Origin: an uncultured Granulosicoccaceae bacterium
GTDB lineage: Bacteria > Pseudomonadota > Gammaproteobacteria > Granulosicoccales > Granulosicoccaceae
DNA: 64,000 nt
Direction: 5' to 3'
NCBI GenBank assembly: GCA_938007995.1
Contig: CALLLW010000023.1
Span: 1-64,000 of the forward strand
Position 1 is the first letter of the stretch; each line of letters opens with the position of its first letter. A model generated the notes under the pieces. That model was not told the DNA's origin. It searched no databases and saw only the letters and a program-made list of their open reading frames with translations. Below are positions 3,303-23,278 of the stretch, piece after piece. The translations under genes were made by a program, and so were the position numbers.

Positions 3303-3370
3303 GAGGCATTATCGCAGATGCTTGGTGACTATAGCGAGATAGTAGTTACCGGCTCCGGCTTGTGTGATTC

Positions 3371-3410
3371 TGCCAGTGCCAGTGCCAGTGCCAGTGCCCG
3401 TGCCAGTGCA
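3371..3410. repeat. Hexamer tandem repeat (TGCCAG)n
   Basis: The unit TGCCAG occurs six times in a row, with one variant copy (TGCCCG, 3395-3400), and is followed by a partial unit TGCA. It lies between the gltB stop codon and the dnaG start and abuts a perfect hairpin. It is read as CTGGCA repeats in the direction of gltB-dnaG transcription. Confidence 0.9.
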
Positions 3411-3436
3411 CCACCTTCCCCGCGCGGGAAGGTGGT
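3410..3436 (-). terminator. Perfect 11-bp hairpin after gltB (no U-tract)
   Basis: ACCACCTTCCC (3410-3420) and GGGAAGGTGGT (3426-3436) form an uninterrupted 11-bp stem with a 5-base CGCGC loop. It begins 15 bases after the gltB stop codon. The minus-strand sequence after it is the CTGGCA repeat and not a T-run, so it is not a classical intrinsic terminator. It could be a processing or mRNA-stabilising element, or a partial terminator between gltB and dnaG. Confidence 0.5.
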
Positions 3437-3451
3437 CTTATGGCCTGTGGA

Positions 3452-20646: not shown

Positions 20647-21720
20647 CTATTTATTGGGCGAGTTAGTGTGAAATGCCGGACTCAACTCGTGCACGGTCTC
20701 GATCATGTATTCGACATTGTCCGGATCGATGTGCTGATGAATGCCGTGGCCCAGGTTAAAAATATGCCGGTCTCCAGTGCCGTAACTTTCCAGCACTCGA
20801 CTAACTTCTTCTCTGATTTTCGGCTTTGAGCCATACAGTACACCGGGATCCAGATTACCTTGCAGTGTGACTTTGTTGCTTGTCAGCGCTCGGGCATCTC
20901 GCAGGTCAGTGGTCCAGTCGACTCCGACGCCATCGCAGCCGGTGCGGGCAATCTCTGGCAGCCACATGCCGCCATTTTTGGTAAACAGTGTGATCGGTGT
21001 GTCCGGGTATGATTGTTTAAGGCTACTGACGATCTGTTGCATGTACTGCAGCGAAAACTCTTTGTAGGCTCTTGGCGTTAGTATGCCACCCCAGGTATCG
21101 AAAACCATCAGCGCCTGAGCACCGGCCGCCACCTGAGCTTTCAGGTACTCAATCGTGGTTATGGTGACTTTGTTGAGTAGCGAATGCAGCGCGTTGTCAT
21201 CCCCGTACATCAGTTTTTTGGTGTGTACATATTCTTTGCTGCCCCCGCCTTCAATCATGTAAGTGGCGACTGTCCATGGGCTGCCGGCGAAGCCGATCAG
21301 CGGCACGCTGTCGTTAAGCTCCGAGCGGGTCAGTCTTAACGCATCCATCACGTAGCGTAACTCTGTTTCCGGATCCGGTGTGCCAAGTGATTCTATGTCT
21401 GCCGGGGTGCGTGACGGGTTTTTAAATTTAGGGCCTTCACCTTCGGCAAAGTACAGCCCGAGGCCCATTGCGTCAGGTACGGTCAGGATATCTGAAAAGA
21501 TTATTGCTGCATCAAGCGGGTATCTTCTGATTGGCTGCAATGTGACTTCGCAGGCGAGCTCTGGTGTTCCGGCCAGAGTCAAAAAATCTCCGGCTTTGGC
21601 ACGGACTTCTCTGTATTCAGGCAGATACCGACCGGCTTGTCGCATGATCCAGATAGGCGTGCGATCGTTGGGTTGATCTTTCAGTGCGCGAAGTAACCGG
21701 GTGTTCCTGATAGAGTGCAT
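20647..21720 (-). CDS. hemE: Uroporphyrinogen decarboxylase HemE
   Basis: Decarboxylates the four acetate side chains of uroporphyrinogen III to give coproporphyrinogen III (haem synthesis). 357 residues, normal length. The N-terminal substrate motif [17 protein letters not shown], the catalytic Asp in [12 protein letters not shown], and [17 protein letters not shown] are all visible. It follows gltD on the same strand with a 68-bp gap. The gltD-hemE order is the same as in pseudomonads, but there gltB precedes gltD. Confidence 0.97.
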
Positions 21721-21788
21721 TGCTTGCCTGCAGTGTTTGAGTAACTGGAATGGATCAGCGGCGATTGCCGACTGAATCCAGCAGCCCG

Positions 21789-23195
21789 TTAAACTTCAAG
21801 GTAATTTATGATGCCCTGTGCTGCATTGCGGCCTTCGAATACAGCAGTCACAACCAGATCAGAGCCACGTACCATATCACCACCAGCAAATATTTTAGGG
21901 TTGGATGTCTGGTGGCTGTAGCCAGTGTTGGCCGGTATATCTACACGGCCCGACTGATCAATGTTAATCGATTGATTGCCAAACCAGTCGGCCGGGCTGG
22001 GTCTGAATCCAAAGGCGATCAGCACAGCATCTGCAACAATAATTTCCTCGGTGCCTGGCACTGCTTCGGGTGAGCGCCGTCCGCGTGAGTCAGCCTGGCC
22101 AAGTTGGGTGGTCACTACTTTAACACCCGCAACCTTGTTGCCTTCACCGATTATCTCGACCGGCTGGCGGTTCCAGAGAAACCGGACCCCTTCCTCTTTT
22201 GCGTTTTTTACCTCGCGGCGTGAACCCGGCATGTTGGTTTCATCGCGTCGGTAGGCACAGGTTACTTCTGCCGCACCTTGCCTGATCGCTGTGCGATTGC
22301 AGTCCATCGCGGTATCACCGCCACCCAGTACTACTACCCTATTATCTTTTAAATCGATAAAAGGTGAGTCAGCCTGCCACTGGTGTTGTTCGTTGACGTT
22401 CGAGATCAGATAGGGCAGAGCGTCGTGCACCCCTTCAAGATCTTCGCCTGGAAAACCACCGCGCATAGAGGTGTAAGTGCCCATGCCCATAAAAACGGCA
22501 TCGTAGTCAGCCAGCAGCTGATCAATAGTGATGTCTTTGCCAATCTCAACATTCAGTGAAAACGTAACGCCCATGTCTTCCATGATTTTGCGGCGCGTAA
22601 AGACAACTTCTTTTTCCAGCTTGAATGGAGGAATGCCGAATGTCAGCAAGCCACCGATTTCCTGATAGCGATCGAATACGATGGGCTCAACGCCGTTGCG
22701 AACCAAAACGTCAGCGCAGGCAAGTCCCGCCGGTCCGGCGCCAATAACGGCAACCTTTTTACCGGTTGGCGTGACGTTTGACATATCGGGTCGCCAGCCT
22801 AGCTTGAGCGCTTCATCAGTGATGTATTTTTCAACAGAGCCAATCGTGACTGCGCCGAAGCCGTCGTTTAACGTGCAGGCACCTTCACAGAGTCTGTCCT
22901 GCGGGCAGACCCGACCACACATTTCAGGTAGCGAGTTGGTTCGGTGGCTCATCTCTGCTGCTTCAAACAGGTTGCCTTCGGCGACCAGCTTCAGCCAGTT
23001 GGGAATGTAGTTATGTACCGGGCATTTCCATTCGCAGTACGGATTGCCACAGGACAGGCATCTTTCGGATTGCGTTGCAGCGGTTTCCGGATCGAACTGG
23101 CCATAAATCTCGCCAAATTCAACAATCCTTTCTTGTACCGGTTTTTTTTCAGGATCCTGACGCGGAGCGTCGAGGAATTGGAAGACATTTCCCAT
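21789..23195 (-). CDS. gltD: Glutamate synthase (NADPH) small subunit GltD
   Basis: Beta subunit of GOGAT. It oxidises NADPH and passes electrons through FAD and Fe-S centres to GltB. The N-terminal cysteine clusters [14 protein letters not shown] and [15 protein letters not shown] bind 4Fe-4S centres. The FAD site [12 protein letters not shown] and the NADPH site [14 protein letters not shown] are intact, and the C-terminal FAD segment [17 protein letters not shown] is present. At 468 residues it is full length. It is separated from gltB by about 14 kb and lies directly downstream of yqeY. Confidence 0.97.
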
Positions 23196-23278
23196 AGTCT
23201 TACGCCGTTGGTTGCGGGGGAGTTTTAAGGCGGCTGGTACTCTTTAGCTGAGCGTACTCGCAGGCTGAGTGACGTGGC

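Follow-up and report, generated by a model that had tools for sequence, protein, structure and literature searches.

The old macromolecular synthesis operon begins with rpsU and continues with dnaG and rpoD, many bacteria having yqeY in it as well; in Pseudomonas and many other gammaproteobacteria a separate cluster has the order ponA/pilMNOPQ-aroK-aroB-damX-gltB-gltD-hemE. Sequence comparison alone does not easily resolve the deep branches that join the gammaproteobacterial orders. We analysed a 64,000-nucleotide stretch of DNA from an uncultured Granulosicoccaceae bacterium (the whole stretch is called the window; it makes up the left end of contig C23, in a genome of 94 contigs), calling genes from open reading frames (ORFs) and NCBIfam/Pfam profile matches. 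Read leftward on the minus strand, the window carries rpsU, yqeY, gltD, hemE, then ponA/mrcA on the plus strand, pilMNOPQ, aroK, aroB, a DamX-like gene, gltB, dnaG and rsmE, with tsaD (plus strand) and plsY (minus strand) to the right of the rpsU side. The ORFs and profile matches agree with the order from rpsU to dnaG given in a preliminary description of this DNA, with weaker matches for pilN, pilO, pilP, aroK and damX. The features are as follows.

23820..24014, minus strand: rpsU (ribosomal protein S21); PF01165 match at 23856-24014, end points set by the analyst
23279..23725, minus strand: yqeY; PF09424 match at 23285-23704 within ORF 23279-23788, the start at 23725 being read as the first internal Met
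23196..23278, minus strand: new junction 1, the yqeY-gltD spacer; recurs in 13/13 permuted genomes and 13/80 named loci
21789..23195, minus strand: gltD (glutamate synthase small subunit); TIGR01318, 765 bits
20647..21720, minus strand: hemE (uroporphyrinogen decarboxylase); TIGR01464
20393..20646, no strand: new junction 3, the convergent ends of hemE and ponA; gene order in the window and relatives
17741..20392, plus strand: ponA/mrcA (penicillin-binding protein 1A); TIGR02074 above cut-off
16411..17484, minus strand: pilM; TIGR01175
15854..16441, minus strand: pilN; position and tblastn in relatives, no NCBIfam match
15206..15841, minus strand: pilO; weak GspM-type match under cut-off, with position and tblastn in relatives
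14643..15203, minus strand: pilP; position and tblastn in relatives, no NCBIfam match
12430..14643, minus strand: pilQ (secretin); TIGR02515
11575..12249, minus strand: aroK (shikimate kinase); PRK05057 at 191.6 bits, slightly below the cut-off of 195, with position and tblastn in relatives
10485..11630, minus strand: aroB (3-dehydroquinate synthase); TIGR01357
8254..10212, minus strand: damX-like gene; TIGR03015 and PRK10905 (DamX), each below cut-off, with position and relatives
3452..7930, minus strand: gltB (glutamate synthase large subunit); PRK11750, 2517.6 bits
3303..3451, minus strand: new junction 2, the gltB-dnaG spacer with an 11-pair hairpin; recurs in permuted genomes
1539..3302, minus strand: dnaG (primase); TIGR01391, 457 bits
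770..1516, minus strand: rsmE, in the place of rpoD; PRK11713.1-5 above cut-off

In the window, yqeY was not directly followed by dnaG (19,992 bases lay between the matched stretches), gltB (3452-7930) and gltD (21789-23195) were not adjacent and had ponA between them on the opposite strand, and dnaG was followed by rsmE, with rpoD on contig C51. Both reference orders given in the preliminary description were found elsewhere. Among the 80 named loci found with gltD, 67 had gltB-gltD, preceded in Pseudomonas and others by pilQ-aroK-aroB; dnaG came after yqeY in other genomes, one of which (L158) also had rpsU, tsaD and plsY there. The remaining 13 of the 80 named loci had yqeY-gltD; five were in or near the family of the window (L032-L036), four belonged to Guyparkeria hydrothermalis (L046), a Halothiobacillus metagenome-assembled genome (MAG; L068), an Acidihalobacter MAG (L060) and a Chromatiales MAG (L039), and four more to other gammaproteobacterial MAGs (L037, L079, L094, L095). 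The gltB-gltD pair was kept in Pseudomonas, Acinetobacter, Alcanivorax, Arenicella, Salinisphaera, Cycloclasticus and two Ectothiorhodospiraceae MAGs. An assembly artefact as the source of the order has a practically negligible probability: the window does begin at a contig end of a genome in many pieces, but the same junctions turn up in numerous assemblies made independently, that of Guyparkeria hydrothermalis strain R3 among them, and misassembly was therefore ruled out.

The closest named records to the genome of the window were Granulosicoccaceae MAGs, and the order was common to this family. In all 18 family relatives for which the yqeY region was fetched, yqeY was followed by gltD, and 15 of the 17 with a fetched dnaG region had gltB-dnaG-rsmE; the other two (G011, G017) had lost gltB, with damX now next to dnaG, and for gltD their genomes gave distant matches only. 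Extra genes followed hemE in some members (L034, L145, L146). A recent insertion in the genome of the window alone was rejected, as the order is common to a clade, and the local insertion into this operon proposed by the preliminary description gave way to an old event common to a deep clade.

A class survey of 151 gammaproteobacterial genomes, nearly one per family, located four genes, and at the thresholds used found gltB in 106, dnaG in 142, yqeY in 137 and gltD in 113 genomes. Adjacency was computed for the 71 genomes with gltB or gltD of the type in the window, as judged by identity. Both new junctions (yqeY-gltD and gltB-dnaG) were present in 13 of these, one new junction alone in none, and both old junctions in 42, with contig ends cutting in, a gene missing or other local changes in the remaining 16. 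The two split pairs thus go together, in line with the earlier proposal of one event behind both. One of the 71 (G113) kept the inner block and had lost both flanks. Thirteen of the other 80 survey genomes were picked by eye and fetched, and in total the block itself or a form derived from it is present in at least 22 of the 151 genomes; the fetched regions of G174, G194, G036, G169 and G160 gave no sign of the block. The named carriers fall into the NCBI families Granulosicoccaceae, Thioalkalibacteraceae (Guyparkeria), Halothiobacillaceae and Ectothiorhodospiraceae (Acidihalobacter). In the GTDB naming, as given in an excerpt of PMC10408702, Granulosicoccales and Halothiobacillales are separate orders, and Acidihalobacteraceae are placed within Ectothiorhodospirales. 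The carrier clade does not include two Ectothiorhodospiraceae MAGs, L044 and L049, whose order is the old one, and the marker therefore cuts across current taxonomic names. A literature search by title and abstract, with subscription papers mostly outside its reach, found no description of the permuted order.

Carriers formed one clade on trees of RNA polymerase. With 60 taxa and 2,725 columns of RpoB and RpoC (LG+G4; a few sequences were partial, and G067 was represented by RpoB alone), a single branch divided 17 carriers from 43 others (SH-aLRT 100, UFBoot 99), and when eroded forms were added, to 80 taxa, 26 carriers and derivatives formed one clade against 54 others (FastTree 0.99). Three carriers among the 71 (G000, G101, G146), for which rpoB could not be found, are absent from these trees. 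New junctions were seen in none of the 54 other taxa (coordinates partly read by eye, the sites of G036 being hidden by contig ends and G194 being viewed without its dnaG side), and a few of the non-carriers on the trees had other changes at the yqeY-dnaG site (G196, G202). One of these (L235 of G196, sister to a named Arenicella MAG) has 14 kb of unrelated genes in the yqeY-dnaG spacer, an independent split; we rejected it as a half-made block, as its genes encode M1 and M16 peptidases, a histidine kinase and others, and gltB-gltD is intact elsewhere in the genome. The support for the sister group of the carrier clade was 0.06 in FastTree.

The RpoB and RpoC trees are unrooted and hold no outgroup, and polarity was taken from gene order, for yqeY-dnaG only. 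Twenty yqeY regions from 18 families of other classes of the phylum were chosen from 61 genomes with a match; dnaG lay no more than 2.7 kb after yqeY in 14 of the 20, rpoD followed dnaG in 13, and of the remaining regions one had dnaG 7.7 kb away and five showed none within the fetched stretch. As other classes keep yqeY-dnaG in 14 of the 20 regions, that order is the ancestral one and the permutation came later; the alternative, a return to exactly the old arrangement, we deem implausible. The gltB-gltD pair is likewise taken as older, because it is widespread in the remainder of the class and because gltBD is generally known as an operon. The permuted order is thus shared by a group, the group forms one clade on the unrooted RpoB and RpoC trees and the order is derived; it is an old rare genomic change that marks one clade. 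Mapping gene order on a phylogeny, the check put forward at the outset, placed the old orders outside this clade and the permuted order within it. None of the results named there as refuting turned up, the gltB-gltD pair being viewed within the gammaproteobacterial class.

Trees of the block's own genes bear on whether the block instead spread between lineages by horizontal transfer. Free trees did scatter the carriers into several groups, with three changes for GltB and six for GltD+HemE in FastTree, and four each in quick maximum-likelihood trees. Against this, one carrier clade was not rejected in AU tests for GltB (p-AU 0.635) or GltD+HemE (0.78), on sets thinned to 48 of 94 and 55 of 112 rows respectively; trees in which the carriers were held together had likelihoods above those of the free quick trees by 16 (GltB) and 27 (GltD+HemE) log units. 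With the carriers forming one clade on RpoB and RpoC as well, horizontal transfer is very improbable. The permuted order very probably had one ancient origin; it is inherited vertically, and subsequent losses of gltB and gltD have eroded it.

Several genomes within the clade show such erosion. Four (G097, G109, G127, G159) have yqeY-hemE-ponA followed by pil and/or aro genes, without gltBD; three of them continue through damX to dnaG and the fetched piece of the fourth, G127, ends at aroB. Two (G044, G150) have yqeY-hemE with no block genes seen before dnaG, and in one (G190, L231) a gltBD of another type comes after yqeY-hemE. Between hemE and dnaG of this last locus no pil-aro genes were found, and the other-type glutamate synthase pair lies there with a nucleotidyl transferase and a phosphate-selective porin. 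Decayed gltB and gltD stand at the two edges of the block in G138 (L309:3958-5086 and L243:4866-5156); the same genome has a complete gltBD of another type on another contig, the remnants being a snapshot of replacement. The yqeY-hemE-ponA forms without gltBD were considered as intermediates of the rearrangement and rejected: they are nested at several places inside the clade, and are therefore losses. That reading is undercut further by the edge remnants in G138 and by the loss of gltB before dnaG in G011 and G017. In G041 (L299, L300) and G115 (L305) both new junctions are present and the halves lie on separate contigs, an arrangement also expected of an inversion intermediate; these split halves, being nested inside the clade, are probably secondary.

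The preliminary description had its single event also put rsmE in the place of rpoD, and this part did not hold. In Guyparkeria, Acidihalobacter, Halothiobacillus and one further MAG (L094), dnaG lies about 16-18 kb after gltD, adjoining gltB, and rpoD comes next within 0.7 kb. Among 24 carriers and derivatives with a fetched dnaG region, outside the family of the window and its near kin G104 and G113, rpoD followed dnaG in 17; it was not seen after dnaG within the fetched stretch in five (G139, G195, G041, G146, G150), and the fetched pieces of two (G109, G190) end too soon to show it. The near kin have dnaG-rsmE, as in the family of the window, where rpoD (above the family cut-off) and dnaG were both found in 30 members, the genome of the window included, and lay on separate contigs in all 30. 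The split of dnaG from rpoD is a separate, later event in this family and its near kin.

The net permutation proposed in the preliminary description stood: the two split pairs travel together, yqeY-dnaG is ancestral and the origin is single. The rpsU-yqeY/dnaG-rpoD locus and the ponA/pilMNOPQ-aroK-aroB-damX-gltB/gltD-hemE locus were each cut once inside and rejoined as rpsU-yqeY-gltD-hemE-ponA/pil-aro-damX-gltB-dnaG-rpoD. An exhaustive search over four blocks (up to yqeY; dnaG onward; ponA to gltB; gltD-hemE) found that, from loci of opposite orientation, two inversions suffice by a unique path, and that from the same orientation three inversions or two transpositions are needed. The first inversion of the unique path alone makes yqeY-gltD and gltB-dnaG, and would explain why both new junctions co-occur, since it would create them at once. 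On the stem lineage, this inversion would have had its breakpoints in the yqeY-dnaG and gltB-gltD spacers of oppositely oriented loci, giving both chimeric junctions, and a second, overlapping inversion would have brought hemE next to ponA. Where both loci of an old-order genome were on one contig, dnaG and gltB were on opposite strands in 8 of 12 (read by eye). One old-order genome (G155; L306, L307) has yqeY-dnaG-rpoD, pilQ-aroK-aroB and gltB-gltD within about 40 kb on one strand.

Order alone cannot choose between routes, and no intermediate of any route, including the stepwise orders that the preliminary description had set against its model, was found among the genomes compared, the route being inferred from its end points. 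We give two overlapping inversions about an even chance of being the route, as the most economical one. The circularisation originally proposed, in which the ponA to hemE block would have been excised as a circle closed at a hemE-ponA joint, cut open between gltB and gltD, and inserted into the yqeY-dnaG spacer, gave the right net order and both junctions together, suits either starting orientation and takes two cut-and-join steps, by our count equal to the inversions. A circular intermediate is not required, however, and would not be shorter than two inversions from opposite orientation; it would have to be a free circle with hemE, aroK, aroB and other core genes, inserted without known homology, and we regard it as unlikely. 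Transposition, serial inversions and similar events between non-homologous sites have been argued to be very infrequent and costly unless transposons provide homology (Brandis 2021, PMC8046335, in part). Duplications are frequent, and are named in the same portion of that paper (PMC8046335) among the mechanisms proposed for changes in operon clusters; a segmental or tandem duplication with unequal loss of copies (the SNAP model) would have freed a gltD to gltB segment from a tandem repeat, with later loss of the old copy. This would need three copies from co-linear loci by our reasoning, and none of the 71 compared genomes was noticed to hold an old copy beside a permuted one, so that such a duplication is also improbable.

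An old rearrangement of single origin, made by two inversions and followed by edge losses, is on balance the probable best explanation overall. In several lineages gltB and gltD would later have been lost from the two edges of the block, and a further break would have swapped rpoD for rsmE after dnaG in the family of the window and its near kin. A stronger statement, to which we give a little less than an even chance, is that two essential operons exchanged parts in a single ancestor by one reciprocal inversion, which made both chimeric transcription units at once, uncoupled the glutamate synthase subunits and marks a deep clade in which the edge genes were repeatedly lost; this clade would comprise Granulosicoccaceae, Halothiobacillaceae, Guyparkeria, Acidihalobacter and several other families.

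The spacing of the genes bears on their transcription. With gltD and gltB 14 kb apart and ponA on the other strand between them, a shared transcript is unlikely, since it would run through ponA antisense; we infer that the two glutamate synthase subunits now come from different transcripts, with gltD downstream of rpsU-yqeY and gltB downstream of pil-aro-damX. Given their close spacing, rpsU-yqeY-gltD-hemE may form one transcript. The gltB-dnaG spacer (3303..3451) has a strong GC-rich hairpin of 11 pairs just after gltB (fold z -3.0), and a short run of GGCACT-like repeats lies between this hairpin and dnaG. Of the fetched spacers, 10 of 33 between gltB and dnaG and 5 of 38 between yqeY and gltD had perfect stems of at least 8 pairs; these are raw counts without a shuffled control, and certain genomes are counted twice. 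These predicted structures suggest that dnaG may be insulated from gltB in some members. One gltB-dnaG spacer (L113 of G018) has a perfect stem of 14 bases in which runs of A and T occur, resembling a bidirectional terminator. Within two stretches of the block, promoter-like sites did not outnumber those in shuffles. Terminator-like sites roughly matched expectation in 1500-12500, and in 17300-24600 they somewhat exceeded the mean (11 against 7.6, sd 2.6).

The genes involved are ordinary housekeeping genes, and the rearrangement is a marker of common descent, not a new biological system. Two linked junctions, never half-made in the sample, are a character unlikely to arise more than once, which can test whether the carrier families, marine and sulfur-oxidising gammaproteobacteria among them, belong together, and can help to sort fragmented genomes from metagenomes; the locus is also a natural experiment in which the genes of a two-subunit enzyme have been moved apart. 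Like the core operon cluster treated in Brandis 2021 (PMC8046335; compared here with part of that account), it records a rearrangement that can be placed on a tree, but that work concerns other operons, and in the present case two clusters were altered jointly and no intermediates of an insertion type were seen. Compared with the macromolecular synthesis operon, carriers keep rpsU, yqeY and dnaG in the old relative direction, whereas dnaG is parted from yqeY by a 20 kb block and, in the family of the window, is also split from rpoD. Compared with the Pseudomonas-type cluster, the inner order and the strands of ponA to gltB and of gltD-hemE are the same, whereas the block of the carriers is cut between gltB and gltD, has hemE joined to ponA and has yqeY and dnaG as its outer flanks.
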